Source: an uncultured Bacteroidota bacterium (GTDB taxonomy: Bacteria; Bacteroidota; Bacteroidia; UKL13-3). Taken from it: a stretch of DNA of 36,482 nt. The stretch covers positions 1-36,482 of the forward strand of contig CAIYNF010000164.1 in assembly GCA_903927505.1 (NCBI GenBank), given 5' to 3'. A program made the translations under genes and the position numbers. Below are positions 3,359-12,691 of the stretch, one piece after another; positions within the stretch are counted from its first letter, which is position 1, and each line of letters opens with the position of its first letter. The notes beneath the pieces are model-generated. The model was not told the DNA's origin. It saw nothing but the letters and a program-made list of their open reading frames with translations, and ran no database searches.

Positions 3359-4102
3359 ATGAAAACAAGAAATCAGGGACTTTTTGTACTCCTATTTTCA
3401 AGCATATTATTTGGTACTGCTTGCAAAAAAAATGTAAGCTTAGAAGCTATTAAACCCAATACCAATGTTAGAATTGAAATATCACATGTTGTAGACAATA
3501 CTCCGCTACTATTCGACAGTATAAACTATGCAAATAAAGGAGGCAATAAATACAGCGTAACACGTTTAAATTATTACATATCTGATATCATTCTTCAAAA
3601 CAACAAAGGTGAAACTTATAATAGCAATAGCACCTATTATGTAAATGGAAGAAATGCTTCAAATGTGATAAATTTACTAGAAATGCCAACTGGAAACTAT
3701 ACCAGTATGCGCTTCCTAATTGGATTAAACCCAACACAAAACACAAGCAATTCTCTTGAAAACAATGTAGACAATTTAAACATGGCTTGGCCAGAAGTTA
3801 TTGGTGGTGGCTACCACTTCCTAAAATTTGAAGGCTATTACCTAGATTCGGCTCGAACCAAACAAGGTTTTACAATGCACCTAGGAACAAACGACATGCT
3901 GGTTGTGCACCAAAGTTTACCTATTTCTTTGGTAATTGAAGAAAACAAACCAGATACCATTGGCTTACAAATGAACTTAAATGAATGGTTTCAAAATCCA
4001 CATACATGGGACTTTAACGTAGACGGAAATTATACCATGGCCATACCAGAATTAATGACACTCCTAAAAAACAACGGAACAGATGTATTTACCATTAAAT
4101 AA
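3359..4102 (+). CDS. MbnP-like copper-binding lipoprotein
   Basis: Lipobox FGTACKK; SRLNYYIS-type SVTRLNYYISDI, AWPEVIGGGYHFLKFEGYY and NEWFQNP motifs as in the MbnP-like domain family; followed directly by a di-haem MbnH/MauG-type protein. Confidence 0.75.
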   Translation: MKTRNQGLFVLLFSSILFGTACKKNVSLEAIKPNTNVRIEISHVVDNTPLLFDSINYANKGGNKYSVTRLNYYISDIILQNNKGETYNSNSTYYVNGRNASNVINLLEMPTGNYTSMRFLIGLNPTQNTSNSLENNVDNLNMAWPEVIGGGYHFLKFEGYYLDSARTKQGFTMHLGTNDMLVVHQSLPISLVIEENKPDTIGLQMNLNEWFQNPHTWDFNVDGNYTMAIPELMTLLKNNGTDVFTIK

Positions 4103-5132
4103 AAATATTGCAGGATTTGTCTTTATAACAAGTGTATTTTTTGCCTGCAAGCAAAACGACACTCCTAAACAGGTGAACACCTACCCAACACCATACGAAA
4201 TGAGTGTACCACCAGGCTTTCCAAAACCAGAACTATCCAGCATTAACCCACTTACCGTTGAAGGAATTCAACTGGGAAAAATGCTGTATTCAGATTCAAT
4301 ATTATCAACTAATGGAAGATCTTGCACCAGTTGCCATCTCGCAATTAACTCTTTTTCATTGCCTATTTTCAATTCATGGAGTGGCAGAAAATTTAGCGTA
4401 CCTGCACATATCAATTTAGGATTCAAAAAACAATACAATTGGGAAGGTTCACAAGAATGTTTAGACACCTTGGCTATGGACGATTTTGATCCGGAGTTTT
4501 TTAATACAAATCCTGAAATTTTGTATAAAAAACTAGCTGCTCATCCTATTTATCCAACACTCTTTAACCAAGCATTTGGCATTTCTGATATAAGCAAAAT
4601 ACCCTTTCAAGAATTAAAAAGAAAAATCGCTTATTCTCTTGCGCAATATTTAAGATCTAAGGTATCAGTCAATTCAAAATTCGACCAATATAGAAACAAA
4701 AAAGCCTTATTAAACAATTTAGAATACGAAGGTTATGTGATATTTTACTCTGAAAAAGGAGATTGTTTTCATTGCCATTCAGAGCCACTTTATACAGATC
4801 AACAGTTCCATAATAACGGTGTAAGCAATACTTATGTGGGCTTTGATTTGGGCCGGCAAAACATTAGCAACAAAGAGGAAGACAAAGGTAAATTCTTTAC
4901 CCCAACCCTTAGAAATATAGAACTCACAGCGCCATACATGCATGATGGCAGATTTAAAACATTACAAGAAGTAGTTGATTTTTACAGCGAAGGAGTTGCA
5001 GAAAATCAATATGTAGATCCTTTAATGACCAAACGAAATGGCACAAGGAAATTAAATTTAACAACATTAGAAAAAATACAACTTATAGCATTCTTAAAGA
5101 CATTAACAGATTTAGATTATTTGAATAAATAA
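4083..5132 (+). CDS. MbnH/MauG-like di-haem cytochrome c peroxidase family lipoprotein
   Basis: Lipobox FFACKQN; two CxxCH haem motifs (CTSCH, CFHCH); FFTPTLRNIELTAPYMHDGRFKTLQEVVDFY is a CCP/MauG family signature; 20 bp overlap with the mbnP-like gene. Confidence 0.85.
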   Translation: MYLPLNKNIAGFVFITSVFFACKQNDTPKQVNTYPTPYEMSVPPGFPKPELSSINPLTVEGIQLGKMLYSDSILSTNGRSCTSCHLAINSFSLPIFNSWSGRKFSVPAHINLGFKKQYNWEGSQECLDTLAMDDFDPEFFNTNPEILYKKLAAHPIYPTLFNQAFGISDISKIPFQELKRKIAYSLAQYLRSKVSVNSKFDQYRNKKALLNNLEYEGYVIFYSEKGDCFHCHSEPLYTDQQFHNNGVSNTYVGFDLGRQNISNKEEDKGKFFTPTLRNIELTAPYMHDGRFKTLQEVVDFYSEGVAENQYVDPLMTKRNGTRKLNLTTLEKIQLIAFLKTLTDLDYLNK

Positions 5133-5200: not shown

Positions 5201-5752
5201 TTATTTCGGTAACAACACCTTATTAATTACATATACAATGCCATTTGTAGCTTTTACATTTCCCAAAAGCTCAGCATCGTTAATAAATGTTTTACCATCT
5301 TTAATTGAAATAGTGGCTATTCCTCCATTAACCATTTCAATTTTCTGTCCATCAGTAAACATCGTTGGCTGATAAACAGCTACGGCAACATGGTATTGCA
5401 AAATATTTTGCAAATCAGCTTTCTTTTCTGGTTCCAATAAGCCCTCAACAGTTCCTGCTGGCAATGCAGCAAAAGCATCATTCACTGGAGCAAATACTGT
5501 AAAAGGTCCAGCATTAGATAAAACATCAACTAGTTCGGCTGCTTTTATAGCCGTTACCAAAGTTGAATGGTCTTTAGATCCAATTGCAACCTTTACAATG
5601 TCCTTTTGGGAATCATCATCTTGCACTCCCGATTGACCTGACAAAGCAGATTCAGTGACGGTTGTTTCAGCCTTTTCTTCGTTTTCACCTCCACATGCCG
5701 ATAAAAAAAACAAAGCTAAAATGGCGGTTGTTGTAAAAATTAATTTCTTCAT
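5201..5752 (-). CDS. Fasciclin (FAS1) domain lipoprotein
   Basis: MKKLIFTTTAILALFFLSACGG lipoprotein signal; LVTAIKAAELVDVLSNAGPFTVFAPVNDAFAALPAGTVEGLL is FAS1. The ORF track start at 5815 would run through the promoter palindromes; the ATG at 5752 is preferred. Confidence 0.9.
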   Translation of the reverse strand: MKKLIFTTTAILALFFLSACGGENEEKAETTVTESALSGQSGVQDDDSQKDIVKVAIGSKDHSTLVTAIKAAELVDVLSNAGPFTVFAPVNDAFAALPAGTVEGLLEPEKKADLQNILQYHVAVAVYQPTMFTDGQKIEMVNGGIATISIKDGKTFINDAELLGNVKATNGIVYVINKVLLPK

Positions 5753-5771: not shown

Positions 5772-5779
5772 CAAATATA
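5772..5779 (-). promoter_or_regulatory. Putative -7 element TATATTTG for the FAS1 gene
   Basis: Exact TAnnTTTG on the minus strand, with its centre 33 bp from the centre of the 5802-5815 dyad. Confidence 0.5.
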
Positions 5780-5801
5780 TTTCGGACAAATACATCCGAA
5801 A
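5780..5801. promoter_or_regulatory. Inverted repeat TTTCGGA-N8-TCCGAAA, candidate Rrf2-family operator (site 1)
   Basis: TTCGGA CAAATACA TCCGAA with 7-bp perfect arms; the core arms and the 8-bp spacer length recur at 6436-6461. Confidence 0.55.
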
Positions 5802-5815
5802 ATGACAATTGTCAT
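5802..5815. promoter_or_regulatory. Crp/Fnr-type dyad ATGACAATTGTCAT
   Basis: Perfect 14-bp palindrome of form TGAC-N4-GTCA in the FAS1/rrf2 divergent intergenic region. Confidence 0.55.
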
Positions 5816-5886
5816 AAAAAAAGATAATATTGTCGGACTTTATTATAAATAATAGAATGTTTAATTTGCACATCAATAATTAGGAT

Positions 5887-6315
5887 ATGTTTTCAAAATC
5901 TTGCGAATACGCTATAAGAGCAGTTATTATTATAAGTAAAAACTCCAAGTCCAATTTAAAGACCAATGTTAAGGAGATTTCTATAAGTGCTGGGGTACCT
6001 GAACAATATATAGCAAAGGTTTTGCAGATTTTAAGCAAACAAAATATTATTCAATCCTATAAAGGGCCTCACGGGGGATTTTTTATTGATGAAAAACATC
6101 AAAAAATCAAACTCATAGAGATTGTTACAGCAATAGATGGCGAATCACTTTTTACTTCTTGCGGCTTAGGTTTACACGAATGCTCTGAAAAAAATCCTTG
6201 CCCTCTTCATAATAGTTTCAAAGGGATTAGAAACGATATTAAAAAAATGCTTCAGAAAACAAGTCTTAACGAATTATCTGAAAATCTCCAAGAATCCCTT
6301 TTTAAAGCCAAATAA
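5887..6315 (+). CDS. Rrf2 family transcriptional regulator with three-cysteine Fe-S-type motif
   Basis: MFSKSCEYAIRAVIIIS...VPEQYIAKVLQILSKQNIIQSYKGPHGGF is the Rrf2 winged-helix signature; C-x6-C-x5-C (CGLGLHECSEKNPC), coding bases 6160-6201, resembles NsrR/IscR cluster ligands. Confidence 0.92.
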   Translation: MFSKSCEYAIRAVIIISKNSKSNLKTNVKEISISAGVPEQYIAKVLQILSKQNIIQSYKGPHGGFFIDEKHQKIKLIEIVTAIDGESLFTSCGLGLHECSEKNPCPLHNSFKGIRNDIKKMLQKTSLNELSENLQESLFKAK

Positions 6316-6364
6316 TAAGTACGTTTTTTCCTTTTACTATTTCAGTTTAAACTTTATCCTATTT

Positions 6365-6380
6365 AAGATATTAATATCTT
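6365..6380. promoter_or_regulatory. 16-bp perfect palindrome AAGATATTAATATCTT upstream of cytochrome c-nosZ
   Basis: Direct reading; AT-rich, so the function is uncertain. Confidence 0.3.
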
Positions 6381-6383
6381 TTT

Positions 6384-6397
6384 ATGATAAATATCAT
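6384..6397. promoter_or_regulatory. Fnr-like dyad ATGATAAATATCAT
   Basis: TGAT-N4-ATCA inverted repeat, close to the TTGAT-N4-ATCAA Fnr consensus. Confidence 0.4.
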
Positions 6398-6405
6398 GCC
6401 TTATA

Positions 6406-6419
6406 TTGACCATTGTCAT
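6406..6419. promoter_or_regulatory. Crp/Fnr (DNR/NnrR)-type dyad TTGACCATTGTCAT
   Basis: TGAC-N4-GTCA, same form as 3309-3320 and 5802-5815; 52 bp upstream of the cytochrome c start codon. Confidence 0.5.
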
Positions 6420-6435
6420 TTGTAACAAGGCGCTA

Positions 6436-6461
6436 TAATTCGGACTTTTACATCCGAATTA
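6436..6461. promoter_or_regulatory. Inverted repeat TAATTCGGA-N8-TCCGAATTA, candidate Rrf2-family operator (site 2)
   Basis: 9-bp perfect arms; same TTCGGA-N8-TCCGAA core as 5781-5800. Confidence 0.55.
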
Positions 6462-6471
6462 AATTAGTAAA

Positions 6472-6965: not shown

Positions 6966-8951
6966 ATGAGAATTACAATAAAACCGCTAATTGCCATTGC
7001 TATAGTAATGGTTAGCATTTTAGGAACCAGTTGCAAAAACAAAGGTTCAAAATCTGGAAGCGCAAAAGATGCTGCCTCTAAAGTTTATGTTGAACCAGGT
7101 AAATACGATGAGTTTTACAATATTGTATCTGGTGGATTCAGTGGACAAGTTTCTATTTATGGCATTCCCTCAGGGCGCCTATTTAGAGTAATTCCTGTTT
7201 TTTCTGTTAACCCCGAAAGTGGTTATGGCTTTAATGAAGAAACAAAACCAATGTTAAATACTTCTCATGGATTTGTTCCTTGGGACGATTCACATCATAT
7301 TGCACTGTCACTTACAAATGGCACACATGATGGTCGTTGGACATTTATCAATGGTAACAATACGCCACGTATTGCACGTATTGATATGAAAACATTTAGA
7401 ACTGCCGAAATTATTGAAATTCCAAATAGCAGTGGAAACCATAGCTCTCCATTTATTACCCAAAATTCAGAATATGTGGTTGCAGGTACACGTTTTAGCT
7501 ACCCTATGGATGATGACAATAGCAATCCTGATGTTCCAATAAATACCTACAAACAAAATTTTAAGGGAACCGTAAGTTTTATTTCTATCGACCCAAAAGC
7601 AGGTACAATGGGATTAGGTTTTCAACTTCTATTACCAGGCTTTAATTTCGATTTAGCGCGTGCCGGTAAAAAAGCTTCAGGTGACTGGGTTTTCTTCTCT
7701 TGCTATAACACAGAACAAGCAAACACTTTATTAGAAGTGAACGCCTCACAAAAAGACAAAGACTTTATTATGGCCGTTAATTGGAAAAAATGTGAAGAGC
7801 TTGTAAAAGCAGGAAAAGGAACCAAGAAAAAGGTAAAATATGCCCATAATATATATAATGAAGAAACACATTCTGCAAAAAGTGAAATATTAACAGATGT
7901 AACCATGTTGGATTCAAAACAATTTGAAGGTTTGGTTTATTTTATGCCATGTCCTAAATCACCGCATGGTTGCGATGTGGACCCAACTGGCCAATACATT
8001 GTAGGCTCAGGAAAATTAGCTGCAATTATTCCTGTATTCTCATTTGATAAAATGTTAAAAGCCATAGCAGCAAAAACATTTGAAGGCAATTTTGAAGGTA
8101 TTCCTGTTTTAAAATATGATGCAGTTCTTCACGGGGAAGTTAAAAAACCAGGATTAGGCCCATTGCATACAGAATTTGACGACAAAGGAAATGCCTATAC
8201 CTCCTTCTTCGTTTCATCTGAAATAGTAAAATGGAATATTGAAAAATTAGAAGTTCTTGATCGTGTTCCTACCTATTATTCTATTGGACATTTATGTGTA
8301 CCAGGTGGACCAACAACCAAACCATGGGGAAAATATGTAATTGCTTACAACAAAATCACCAAAGACAGGTATTTGCCAACAGGTCCTGAATTAACACAAT
8401 CAGCTCAATTGTATAGCATTGATGGAGATAAAATGAAATTATTACTTGATTTCCCAACCATTGGTGAACCGCATTATGCAGAAGCAATTCCTGCTGAATT
8501 AATTGTAAAAAATAGCACCAAAATGTTCAAAATTGAAAACAACAAACATCCCTATGCCGCTAAAGGAGAAGGAATGGCTAAAGTTGAAAGAAAAGGCAAG
8601 GAAGTACATGTTTGGATGACTTCAATTCGCTCACATTTTACACCAGATAATATTGAAGGAATAAAAATGGGTGATGTGGTTTATTTCCATATCACAAACC
8701 TTGAACAAGATTGGGATGTTCCTCATGGATTTGCTATTAAAGGTGCAAACAATGCAGAACTACTAATTATGCCAGGTGAAACCGCAACACTAAAATGGAC
8801 GCCAGATAGAGTTGGTGTGTTTCCAATGTATTGCACAGACTTCTGCTCTGCCTTACACCAAGAAATGCAAGGATACGTTCGCGTATCACCAGCAAGTTCA
8901 ACAGTACCTATTAGCTTCTCTACTGGTACAAATACCGCAGCTAAAAACTAA
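6966..8951 (+). CDS. nosZ: Nitrous oxide reductase, clade II (Sec-dependent, lipoprotein-type)
   Basis: FYNIVSGGFSGQVSIYGIPSGR, WDDSHHIALSLTNGTHDGRW, SPHGCDVDPTGQYIVGSGKL, GPLHTEFDDKGNAYTSFF; C-terminal CuA site YCTDFCSALHQEMQGY. The N-terminus has a lipobox (GTSCKNKG) and no twin-arginine motif. Confidence 0.97.
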   Translation: MRITIKPLIAIAIVMVSILGTSCKNKGSKSGSAKDAASKVYVEPGKYDEFYNIVSGGFSGQVSIYGIPSGRLFRVIPVFSVNPESGYGFNEETKPMLNTSHGFVPWDDSHHIALSLTNGTHDGRWTFINGNNTPRIARIDMKTFRTAEIIEIPNSSGNHSSPFITQNSEYVVAGTRFSYPMDDDNSNPDVPINTYKQNFKGTVSFISIDPKAGTMGLGFQLLLPGFNFDLARAGKKASGDWVFFSCYNTEQANTLLEVNASQKDKDFIMAVNWKKCEELVKAGKGTKKKVKYAHNIYNEETHSAKSEILTDVTMLDSKQFEGLVYFMPCPKSPHGCDVDPTGQYIVGSGKLAAIIPVFSFDKMLKAIAAKTFEGNFEGIPVLKYDAVLHGEVKKPGLGPLHTEFDDKGNAYTSFFVSSEIVKWNIEKLEVLDRVPTYYSIGHLCVPGGPTTKPWGKYVIAYNKITKDRYLPTGPELTQSAQLYSIDGDKMKLLLDFPTIGEPHYAEAIPAELIVKNSTKMFKIENNKHPYAAKGEGMAKVERKGKEVHVWMTSIRSHFTPDNIEGIKMGDVVYFHITNLEQDWDVPHGFAIKGANNAELLIMPGETATLKWTPDRVGVFPMYCTDFCSALHQEMQGYVRVSPASSTVPISFSTGTNTAAKN

Positions 8952-9005: not shown

Positions 9006-9992
9006 ATGAAATTCAATAAATATTTCCGATTTTTATTAGGTGCCTCTTGCCTTTTAGCTATCTATTCACTCTACCTACCCATATGGGAAATATACCTATG
9101 GGCACCACAATATCCAGAGGGTTTATCTGTTCAGATCTGGCATAATGATGTAAGAGGAGATGTGGATATTATCAATGGACTAAACCATTACATTGGCATG
9201 AAACATATAAAAACAGAAATGTTTCCTGAATTTAAGGTGTTAATTTATCTTATCCTTGCCTTCATAGGTTTTGGTTTCCTAACCGCTTTAATTGGTTCCG
9301 TTAAACTATTAAAAGCATTTCTCATAACATGTGTGCTTGGTGGTATCATTGCCTTGGCAGATTTTTACAGATGGGGATACGATTATGGCCATAACCTAGA
9401 CCCAACTGCTCCCATTCAAGTACCTGGCATGGCCTATCAACCACCAATAATTGGCTATAAAGACTTATTGAATTTTACTGCATTATCAATGCCCTCCAGC
9501 GGAGGATGGCTAATTATTTCAGTTGCTGTAATTGCATTTGTTGCGCTAATTTTCAATTGGCTAAAAAACAAAAAAATGGCAAGCATAGCTCCATTGTTAG
9601 TAGTATTTACATTGCTACAATCATGTCAAAACAATATTCCTAGCATAGCATTTGGAACTGATGATTGCGATTTTTGTAAAATGAAAATAATGGACAAAAA
9701 ATTTGGTATTGCATTTAAAACACCTAAAGGAAAAGTTTTTAAATTTGATGATTTTCATTGCTACCAATCCTATTTAAAAGACCTGCCTACTAATGAAAAG
9801 TCAACCTATGTAGTTTGCTTCGATCAGCCGGGAGAATTAATAGAATCTAAACTTGCAAGTTTCGCAAATGGGGAACAAATTCACAGTCCAATGGGCGGCG
9901 GAATAGCTTTTTTTAAGGACCCAAATAATATAGAAATAAATTTCCCAGCTATCGAAAAGAAAGGGAAATTCGAAGAATTGACAAATGAATAA
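9006..9992 (+). CDS. nosL: Fusion: multi-pass membrane domain + NosL copper chaperone
   Basis: Several TM helices in residues 1-190; from residue 191 MASIAPLLVVFTLLQSCQNN (an embedded lipoprotein-like signal) then CDFCKMKIMDKKFGIAFKTPKGKVFKFDDFHC, the NosL signature. Confidence 0.88.
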   Translation: MKFNKYFRFLLGASCLLAIYSLYLPIWEIYLWAPQYPEGLSVQIWHNDVRGDVDIINGLNHYIGMKHIKTEMFPEFKVLIYLILAFIGFGFLTALIGSVKLLKAFLITCVLGGIIALADFYRWGYDYGHNLDPTAPIQVPGMAYQPPIIGYKDLLNFTALSMPSSGGWLIISVAVIAFVALIFNWLKNKKMASIAPLLVVFTLLQSCQNNIPSIAFGTDDCDFCKMKIMDKKFGIAFKTPKGKVFKFDDFHCYQSYLKDLPTNEKSTYVVCFDQPGELIESKLASFANGEQIHSPMGGGIAFFKDPNNIEINFPAIEKKGKFEELTNE

Positions 9993-11220
9993 ATTTTTTC
10001 TATTTATTACTACCCTACTTCTGCTTATTATAAATGCGAATGCAAAGCAAATAGTAGTTAATCCAAATTCCAAGAAACACCCCATTCAAAACGCTCTCTC
10101 TCAAGCAAAAGCATTTGATACAATCATCATTTTAAGTGGAAATTACTTTGAGGGTAATTTAAAAATCACCAAACCAATAACCATCATTGGTAAAAACTAT
10201 CCTTGCCTTTCTGGTGAAAATAAATATGAATTAATTTCCATTGAGGCAAACAATGTTAACATTAAGGGTTTAAAACTAATTAATTCTGGCTACTCAGACT
10301 TAGAAGACATGGCTGCCATAAGAATTTATGGCAATAAGAATATTATCCTATCCAATAATATACTTGAGAATAATTTCTTCGGAATTTACCTAACAAATGC
10401 AAGTTATTGTTTAGTAGAAAACAACAACATTACAGGTCCAGATAGAGATCAAAATAATGTTGGAAATGGCATTCATCTCTGGAAATCAACCCATAACTAC
10501 ATTTTAAAAAACAAAATCAAAAAACACCGCGATGGAATTTATTTTGAATTTGTAAAACACTCCATCATTGCAAATAATTTTAGCGAATGTAACCAACGTT
10601 ATGGCTTACATTTTATGTTTTCAGATTCTGATACCTATTATAAAAACACATTCAAAAACAATGGAGCAGGTGTTGCTGTAATGTATAGCAAAAATGTAGT
10701 TATGCTCAAAAACACCTTTGTTTTAAATTGGGGTAGTTCTGCTTATGGACTGCTGCTAAAGGATATTAGAGACAGTAAAGTGCTAAATAATATATTCAAA
10801 AAAAATACAGTAGGTATATATATGGATGGTTGCAGCAGGTCGCATTTTATAAAAAATAATTTTTTAAACAATGGTTATGCTTTAAGAATGCAAGCAAGTT
10901 GCGACGATAATATTTTTAATTTCAACAACTTTATAACTAATACATTCGAGTACGCAACCAACGGTTTTACCGTATTAAACGAAATAAACTTTAATTACTG
11001 GGATAAATACCAAGGCTATGATTTGGAAAGGGATGGCATTGGCGACCAAGTTTTTCATCCTATGAATATGTTAACAGGAATCATAGAAGAATATCCAAGT
11101 ACCATTTTATTATTGCAGAGTTTCCTTTCAGACTTACTTAATTTACTCGAAAAAGTAATTCCATCTCTTACCCCAGAAAACCTAAGAGACAATTACCCCC
11201 TAATGAAACCAATCTTATGA
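9985..11220 (+). CDS. nosD: Nitrous oxide reductase maturation protein, periplasmic beta-helix
   Basis: Signal peptide, IQNALSQAKAFDTIIILSGNYFEGNLKI, repeated NNIL/NNF parallel beta-helix repeats, GNGIHLWKS and NYWDKYQGYDLERDGIGD; between nosL and nosF. Confidence 0.93.
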   Translation: MNKFFLFITTLLLLIINANAKQIVVNPNSKKHPIQNALSQAKAFDTIIILSGNYFEGNLKITKPITIIGKNYPCLSGENKYELISIEANNVNIKGLKLINSGYSDLEDMAAIRIYGNKNIILSNNILENNFFGIYLTNASYCLVENNNITGPDRDQNNVGNGIHLWKSTHNYILKNKIKKHRDGIYFEFVKHSIIANNFSECNQRYGLHFMFSDSDTYYKNTFKNNGAGVAVMYSKNVVMLKNTFVLNWGSSAYGLLLKDIRDSKVLNNIFKKNTVGIYMDGCSRSHFIKNNFLNNGYALRMQASCDDNIFNFNNFITNTFEYATNGFTVLNEINFNYWDKYQGYDLERDGIGDQVFHPMNMLTGIIEEYPSTILLLQSFLSDLLNLLEKVIPSLTPENLRDNYPLMKPIL

Positions 11221-11921
11221 TTGAAATAAATAAGCTTTATAAAAGTTACCATAAACATGAGGTCCTTAATGATATCAACCTAAAACTGGAAAAGGGCATG
11301 ATTGCAGGACTAATTGGACAAAATGGAACAGGCAAAACAACCCTCATTAAATGTATTCTGGGATTAACACAATACCAAAAAGGAGATATTCTCATCGACA
11401 ACAAATCCATTCAAATTGGCCCTGAGTACCGTCAAAAAATTGGCTATATGGCTCAAATTGGTAAATACCCAGAAAACATGAGTATTGCCCAACTGTTTTC
11501 AATGATGCATGAAATAAGACAAGTAAATGAAACAGACAACGAACTCTATGAACAGTTTGAAATAAAAAAAATTGAAAGAAAATTACTGGGACAATTAAGT
11601 GGTGGAACAACTCAGAAAGTAAGTGCCGCATTGGCATTTTTATTTAAACCAGAAATTCTAATATTAGACGAACCAACCGCAGGACTAGATCCAATTGCTT
11701 CAGAAATTTTAAAGGATAAGATAAGCAAAGAAAAAGAAAACAAGCTTATCCTTATCACTTCACATATACTTAACGACCTAGATGAAATAGCCTCACACGC
11801 TATTTTTCTGCAAAATGGTAAACTGCTTTTTTTTGAAACAATTCAAGCACTCAAAGCAAAAAGTGGTCACCACAAATTAGGAAAAACCATTGCTGAAATA
11901 ATGAAGGAAAAACAACAATAG
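11217..11921 (+). CDS. nosF: ABC transporter ATP-binding protein of the Nos system
   Basis: Walker A GQNGTGKTT, LSGGTTQKV signature, Walker B ILILDEPTAGLD; ATGA overlap with nosD. Confidence 0.93.
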   Translation: MIEINKLYKSYHKHEVLNDINLKLEKGMIAGLIGQNGTGKTTLIKCILGLTQYQKGDILIDNKSIQIGPEYRQKIGYMAQIGKYPENMSIAQLFSMMHEIRQVNETDNELYEQFEIKKIERKLLGQLSGGTTQKVSAALAFLFKPEILILDEPTAGLDPIASEILKDKISKEKENKLILITSHILNDLDEIASHAIFLQNGKLLFFETIQALKAKSGHHKLGKTIAEIMKEKQQ

Positions 11922-11923
11922 CT

Positions 11924-12691
11924 ATGATTAAAATTACCAAATACCTCACAATAAGCATCCTCAAAAGTAAATTCATTATTGGATATGGCTTGCTCCTATT
12001 TAGTATATGTATTGGTTTATTTGCAATTAGCAACGACCAAGACAAAGCCATTATTGGAATCAATAATGTGCTACTAATTATTATTCCTATTGTAGTAATG
12101 ATTTACACAGTGAGTCAAATTTACCAATCAACTGATTTTATTAGACTTCTCTTGACCCAACCTATCAAAAGAAAATTTATATTTTTTAGCCAGTTTTTCT
12201 CTTACACAATCGTTTTGGCTTTGATCCAAAGCCTTTCCATTACCTTTTCTTTTATTCTATTCTCAGATGCTTCTTTACTATTTACAGTATTGCTTAATAG
12301 CCTTTTTTTAACCTTTATTTTCAGTGCAATTTCATTTCTAATTGCGTATTCAATAGATGAAAAAGTTAAAGGAATTGGCGTTACTATATTTTTAGGAATT
12401 TACTTTTTAGCTATTTATGATGGCCTATTACTTTTTTTAATTCAAGCTATGAGTGATTACCCTATTGAAAGATTCGGAATCCTTTTGAGCCTCTTCAATC
12501 CTATTGATTTATGTAGGATATTGTTTATTTTCAAAATGGACATCTCCGCATTAATGGGAATAACAGGCGCCATTATGCAAAAAATCATTGGATCGAACCT
12601 CGGTACTATTGTTATATTCATTGTATTGAGCTTGTGGGCTTGTATACCACTTATATTGGCAGGCAGGAAATTCATTAAAAAGGATTATTAA
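11924..12691 (+). CDS. nosY: ABC transporter permease of the Nos system
   Basis: Six-TM-like hydrophobic protein directly after nosF; LLTQPIKRKFIFFSQF and LFNPIDLCRI are typical of NosY-type permeases. Confidence 0.88.
   Translation: MIKITKYLTISILKSKFIIGYGLLLFSICIGLFAISNDQDKAIIGINNVLLIIIPIVVMIYTVSQIYQSTDFIRLLLTQPIKRKFIFFSQFFSYTIVLALIQSLSITFSFILFSDASLLFTVLLNSLFLTFIFSAISFLIAYSIDEKVKGIGVTIFLGIYFLAIYDGLLLFLIQAMSDYPIERFGILLSLFNPIDLCRILFIFKMDISALMGITGAIMQKIIGSNLGTIVIFIVLSLWACIPLILAGRKFIKKDY

Follow-up and report, generated by a model that had tools for sequence, protein, structure and literature searches.

The closest described counterpart of the regulator considered here is NsrR, an Rrf2-family protein whose published operator is gATGyAT-N5-ATrCATc and which a 2005 survey places in proteobacteria, Bacillus and Streptomyces (PMC1274295). 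Genes of the rrf2 type beside clade II nos clusters are also on record, in Melioribacter roseus (Mros1101; PMC3534657) and on Ushuaia Bay scaffolds (PMC6264515). The Bacteroidota are a large group of N2O consumers, and both their NO response and their control of clade II nosZ are little described in the open literature that we searched. We analyzed a stretch of 36,482 nucleotides from an uncultured Bacteroidota bacterium (the window), in which an rrf2 gene lies between a FAS1 lipoprotein gene and a clade II nos operon, together with predicted operators and FNR/DNR-like boxes. The features are as follows.

5201 to 5752, minus strand: FAS1 (fasciclin-domain) lipoprotein gene, a predicted target (Pfam Fasciclin, 106.5 bits)
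5776 to 5805, no strand: predicted operator 1, with a perfect TTCGGA-N8-TCCGAA at 5781 to 5800, in the FAS1 promoter and kept in orthologous loci
5803 to 5814, no strand: FNR/DNR-like palindrome TGACAATTGTCA, adjoining operator 1 and found at the same place in loci L048 to L051
5814 to 5843, no strand: predicted operator 2, in the rrf2 promoter, predicted to be autoregulatory and close to the -56 to -64 position used by rrf2 homologues
5887 to 6315, plus strand: Rrf2-family regulator gene (TIGR00738, 100.8 bits, cut-off 73.3; PF02082, 95.2 bits, cut-off 30)
6358 to 6387, no strand: predicted operator 3, of the AAGAT-ATTAAT-ATCTT type, in the distal nos promoter, some 100 bp ahead of the cytochrome c-nosZ operon
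6385 to 6396, no strand: FNR/DNR-like palindrome TGATAAATATCA, paired with that at 6407 to 6418
6407 to 6418, no strand: FNR/DNR-like palindrome TGACCATTGTCA, paired with that at 6385 to 6396
6434 to 6463, no strand: predicted operator 4, with a perfect TTCGGA-N8-TCCGAA at 6439 to 6458, in the proximal nos promoter, with equivalents in L048 to L051
6472 to 6951, plus strand: c-type cytochrome lipoprotein gene, first of the nos operon (Pfam Cytochrom_C)
6966 to 8951, plus strand: nosZ, encoding a Sec-dependent (clade II) nitrous-oxide reductase (TIGR04246, 926 bits, cut-off 625)
9006 to 12691, plus strand: nosL-like, nosD, nosF and nosY after nosZ, open reading frames named by gene order and sequence character

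The naming of the nosL-like, nosD, nosF and nosY genes agrees with clustering in the named loci used for comparison. Between nadA and FAS1 (3359 to 5132) the window also encodes an MbnP-like lipoprotein, recognized by eye, and a di-heme enzyme of the MbnH/MauG family; homologues of this pair recur in relatives, and one of them has an operator in L052.

The initial annotation had reported two TTCGGA-N8-TCCGAA repeats on either side of rrf2. Both are exact, and the arms of the second reach 9 bp when extended (6436 to 6461), as described. The first lies 28 bp upstream of the FAS1 start codon, and operator 1 adjoins a promoter-like TATATTTG on the minus strand; the second is separated by 13 bp from the start codon of the cytochrome c gene, and its extended form ends 10 bp before that codon. 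A related half-site reported at 5833 is present in the sequence, not as a lone half-site but as the right arm of operator 2, which is complete, slightly degenerate and has the core AGAT-AATATT-GTCG. The repeats do flank rrf2, but the full set in the window comprises four operators, that at 6358 to 6387 (TTTAAGATATTAATATCTTTTTA) having been overlooked. A 30-bp matrix trained on 37 sites from named loci, none of them from the window, places these four far above all else in the 36 kb: operator 1 scores 19.6, the best in the window, followed by operators 3 (18.9), 2 (18.1) and 4 (12.4), and the next best non-operator place scores 6.9. With a reduced matrix, from which TTCGGA-type sites and the closest relatives had been removed, the site at 6358 ranks first (17.1) and that at 5814 second in the window. 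On account of these matrix results, rrf2 is predicted to have an operator of its own and the nos operon two, unlike in arm flavour, and a single Rrf2 protein apparently tolerates both flavours.

The assembled genome of the organism (2.82 Mb, 209 contigs, 99.67% complete) contains perfect TTCGGA-N8-TCCGAA in three places, before FAS1, before the cytochrome c gene and nosZ, and before a putative RIC gene. When Y and R were set at the spacer ends, 3 places matched perfectly, 0 had one mismatch and 12 had two. The third perfect copy is 46 bp upstream of a gene whose 237-aa product has an ScdA_N and a hemerythrin domain. By these domains we assign the product as a RIC/YtfE-type NO-damage repair protein, and the layout of the operator there, TTTG-N19-TATTTTTG, is that of many rrf2 operators in the named loci. 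The genome-wide search that had been proposed thus revealed no scatter of the motif, and all 3 sites precede plausible NO or denitrification genes. The genome carries COX1-family NorB-like and NorC-like genes besides NosZ and RIC. The window begins inside the NorB-like gene, whose C-terminal part occupies 22 to 384; the remainder, with the NorC-like gene ahead of it, is probably on contig C181 (L212). An operator was looked for upstream of the organism's own norCB genes and none was found. Searches of the 99.67% complete genome for NirK (TIGR02376) and NirS (PF02239) gave no match, and the organism is apparently an NO and N2O consumer lacking a canonical nitrite reductase. Since neither enzyme was found, NO would reach it from outside or from a non-canonical source, and NO-dependent N2O reduction would serve such a consumer.

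Homologues of the Rrf2 protein occur in 28 of the 68 genomes of the family. The palindrome stands beside rrf2 at 77, 73, 70 and 59% protein identity, as well as at some homologues of 43-47% identity, and in orthologous loci the arms stay constant while the spacer drifts; recurrence of the repeat next to orthologous rrf2 genes, a search suggested at the outset, was therefore borne out. A perfect Y-N6-R site is present in 9/28 family genomes with an Rrf2 homologue versus 0/40 without (Fisher p = 1.4e-4, a value that ignores relatedness). Rarity in the genome, the orthologous loci and this link to Rrf2-bearing genomes strongly support the earlier proposal that the repeat is a candidate operator of the regulator that it flanks.

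The motif as first defined was too narrow. Among 80 named rrf2 loci of the Bacteroidota, a palindrome of the same geometry is found repeatedly some 60 bp before rrf2, with outer arms that vary (TTCGGA, TTAGGA, AAAGGA, AAAAGA). The fixed core, RGAY-N6-RTCY, occurs 35 times at -66 to -48 in these 80 loci, where other spacings occur at most once. We therefore rejected TTCGGA-N8-TCCGAA as the full motif, given that most relatives have AAARGA arms and that the constant part is RGAY-N6-RTCY: the TTCGGA arm is part of a real site but is not essential to it, the outer TTCG being one of several flavours. The centre of the core prefers A and T (GAYAAWWTTRTC), and in many loci it holds TTTG, which we take to be the -33 box of the Bacteroidota -33/-7 promoter consensus. 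A TAnnTTTG -7 box follows 19-21 bp after TTTG, with the offset peaking at 30-32. An operator lying over the promoter, that of the regulator's own gene included, has the geometry expected of a repressor site.

In a scan of 395 genomes of the class that was independent of rrf2, TTCGGA-type matches fall mostly inside coding sequence, and for that reason they were rejected as regulon members. Thirty loci were fetched, and they contain 9 non-coding sites, 6 of them before rrf2 homologues (L131, L134, L135, L136, L149 and L157), 2 before RIC genes (L146 and L147) and 1 unassigned (L138). The class-wide scan for AT-type sites returned 5 relevant matches out of 10; the other half lie away from NO genes and are unassigned, and some look terminator-like. 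Two further conserved sequences were noted. About 30 bp past the rrf2 stop codon and before the next gene, GATAAAAAGGTCTTAATATAT is conserved as an asymmetric operator-like sequence (L106, L109, L110, L116 and others) and may represent a weaker form of the operator. The sequence TTCGGAATGCATATTCCGAA is kept in five genomes of the related genus g8 (L041 to L045) that have no Rrf2 homologue at E of at most 1e-12, and it was rejected as the same site and treated as a distinct conserved element.

Applied to the named loci, the matrix yields 142 matches (37 of them training sites) versus 5 in mirrored sequences. Counting only non-training sites in named rrf2 loci, no gene bears an operator more consistently than that of the FAS1 lipoprotein (10/10); the counts are 5/5 for the nos cytochrome, 4/5 for NorC-like genes, 18/26 for flavohaemoglobin (Hmp), 6/15 for cbb3 CcoN, 6/26 for RIC, 5/30 for truncated globin and 15/429 for all remaining ORFs; the loci were picked for carrying rrf2, and enrichment near rrf2 is thus partly built in. 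The flavohaemoglobin of the rrf2 loci passes the NCBIfam model for the NO-inducible flavohemoprotein (500 vs 432 bits). Beyond FAS1 and cytochrome c-nosZ, next to which the repeats were first noticed, the predicted regulon takes in RIC and, in relatives, flavohaemoglobin. Support appears thinner for targets distant from rrf2, because among 30 ScdA_N-domain loci fetched regardless of rrf2 a strong site is present in only 5, with rrf2 nearby in 4 of those; as evidence for the regulon outside rrf2 loci we set this RIC-centred scan aside as weak. Three proteins that recur with rrf2, 415, 145 and 111 aa in length, have no Pfam or NCBIfam match (examples are L056:3899-5143, L061:6326-6760 and L109:5497-5829, respectively). 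An operator precedes the 415-aa gene in 5/11 and the 111-aa gene in 4/5 cases in the named loci, and all three are candidate new NO-response proteins.

Given these data, we consider it probable that an NO-released, NsrR-like Fe-S repressor, belonging to a distinct Bacteroidota clade of Rrf2 proteins, acts at these operators and controls NO defence together with clade II N2O reduction. The protein passes the Rrf2 superfamily cut-off and falls far below the curated cut-offs of the equivalog models for IscR, RirA, CymR and NsrR. Its AlphaFold model (pLDDT 86) has the Rrf2 winged-helix fold, and the top 38 fold matches in the PDB are RsrR, CymR, NsrR, IscR and other putative or Rrf2-type regulators. 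Within an unselected set of 17 sequences C92-X6-C99-X5-C105, H108 and C6 are invariant. The C92/C99/C105 triad, H108 and C6 are also present in 81/81 sequences, a count that is biased for C6, C99 and C105, which fall within the peptide motifs by which the loci were retrieved, but not for C92; E7 is present in 77/81. By analogy, C92, C99, C105, H108, C6 and E7 are possible Fe-S ligands, and the conserved residues would hold a cluster as in NsrR and IscR.

The same Rrf2 protein could instead read Fe-S status, redox or iron at these operators, in the manner of IscR, RsrR or RirA. Its model scores are closer to those of Fe-S regulators (suf regulator, 65 bits; IscR, 62.4 bits, cut-off 207.55) than to that of NsrR (34.2 bits, cut-off 182), its fold is closest, among solved ones, to those of RsrR and CymR, and an IscR-like His follows the third Cys. 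The genes that bear operators, however, are flavohaemoglobin, RIC, NorC-like, globin and nos genes, and neither isc nor suf genes were recognized among the recurrent neighbours of rrf2 in the named loci. We regard a signal other than NO as unlikely on this basis.

The nos promoter and the FAS1-rrf2 gap also contain TGAY-N4-RTCA boxes, which persist in four related loci despite drift in their sequence. The two boxes in the nos promoter stand exactly 22 bp apart, a spacing shared with L048, L049, L050 and L051. The box in the FAS1-rrf2 gap likewise keeps its place in these loci, and none of three control palindromes was found. The boxes resemble the published DNR box, CTTGATnnnnATCAAG (PMC1274295), and their presence suggests joint control by a Crp/Fnr-type activator. 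They also raise the question of whether some other regulator, such as a Crp/Fnr-family denitrification activator, binds the operators themselves, the proximity of rrf2 reflecting no more than a shared gene cluster. We consider this very improbable, even though the FNR-like boxes share both promoters, for they are distinct sequences, RGAY-N6-RTCY precedes rrf2 itself at a constant distance throughout the phylum, and perfect Y-N6-R sites within the family are confined to genomes with an Rrf2 homologue.

It is less plausible still that the repeats act as RNA, forming a 5'-leader hairpin (an attenuator, terminator or RNA thermometer). The arms could pair as a stem of 6-9 bp, and the extended proximal nos repeat does end shortly before the start codon. 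Yet the RIC and rrf2 sites are upstream of the -7 box, so they would not be transcribed; where orthologous sites have become asymmetric, as in L050 (TTAAGA...TCCGAA), no compensating change is seen; the same core also occurs with AT-only arms; and no T-run follows the window copies. Chance, finally, is excluded by the comparative data: although 6-bp palindromes with an N8 spacer are common in the window (23), this pair is the only duplicated one within 700 bp in the 36 kb, no duplicated pair with arms of at least 3 G/C arose in first-order Markov simulations (n = 300), the sites are conserved despite a drifting spacer, and two window operators were recovered independently by the matrix lacking TTCGGA sites.

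We hypothesize, then, that the NO-released Rrf2 repressor works as follows. In its Fe-S form and without NO, the homodimer encoded between the repeats would sit on WWNRGAY-N6-RTCYNWW palindromes and cover the promoters of rrf2, FAS1, RIC/YtfE and, through two sites, the cytochrome c-nosZDFY operon. NO would attack the cluster and the dimer would release the DNA, turning on NO repair and N2O reduction, and a Crp/Fnr-family activator probably works at the neighbouring TGAY-N4-RTCA boxes. The operators, their conservation and promoter position, the target genes and the conserved cysteines are features of the sequences themselves; we infer that the sites are bound by Rrf2, which represses through them, carries an Fe-S cluster and responds to NO, the last because the predicted target genes are NO genes. 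With less assurance, we lean towards a broader view, in which this Rrf2 clade extends across the Bacteroidota, lacks orthology to NsrR and acts as master repressor of the NO response in the phylum, with a code of its own, RGAY-N6-RTCY over the -33 box, and NO sensing coupled directly to the clade II N2O reductase, so that hosts without detected NirK or NirS would switch on N2O reduction upon NO from neighbours. If NO does induce N2O reduction in organisms without a nitrite reductase, the response of N2O sinks to their neighbours would be affected. The operator, with its base-level predictions, is testable in the culturable Pedobacter, Dyadobacter, Sphingobacterium and Aequorivita, and regulons can be read from genomes.

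Compared with described Rrf2 regulators, the protein resembles NsrR in fold, Cys triad and palindromic operators placed in promoters, and in its kinds of target, those of NsrR being Hmp, RIC/YtfE (dnrN) and, in some species, denitrification genes. The NO-detoxification genes of the NsrR regulon (hmp, RIC/dnrN, nor) are among those preceded by predicted operators here. The operators differ, as the initial annotation had supposed: gATGyAT-N5-ATrCATc has 13 bp between its GAT and ATC triplets (PMC1274295), as opposed to RGAY-N6-RTCY here, and in the 80 upstream regions wider RGAY/RTCY spacings of 10-13 yielded 0-4 sites each, spacing 6 alone being enriched. Because the target kinds are the same, and the subfamily score and operator are not, the regulator most likely works like NsrR while falling outside the NsrR subfamily model. 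With IscR it shares the Rrf2 fold and three Cys followed by His (here C-X6-C-X5-C-X2-H), but it is far below the IscR cut-off, has Ala in place of the recognition residue E43 in our alignment, and is predicted to control NO genes. Among solved structures RsrR comes nearest, both in profile score (48.8 bits) and in fold, and has an N-terminal Glu as a possible ligand in common with the protein, yet identity is about 20% and RsrR has another operator and senses redox (PMC9338935). Our search of the open-access literature brought up no description of an NsrR or Rrf2 operator from the Bacteroidota. In the Melioribacter roseus and Ushuaia Bay loci rrf2 has the same neighbours, cytochrome c and nosZ, and the passages that describe these loci propose control from gene position only, with operator, regulon and signal absent from those passages (PMC3534657, PMC6264515). 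The neighbourhood of rrf2 and clade II nos genes has thus been reported before; the operator and the regulon are new as far as the open literature searched goes.
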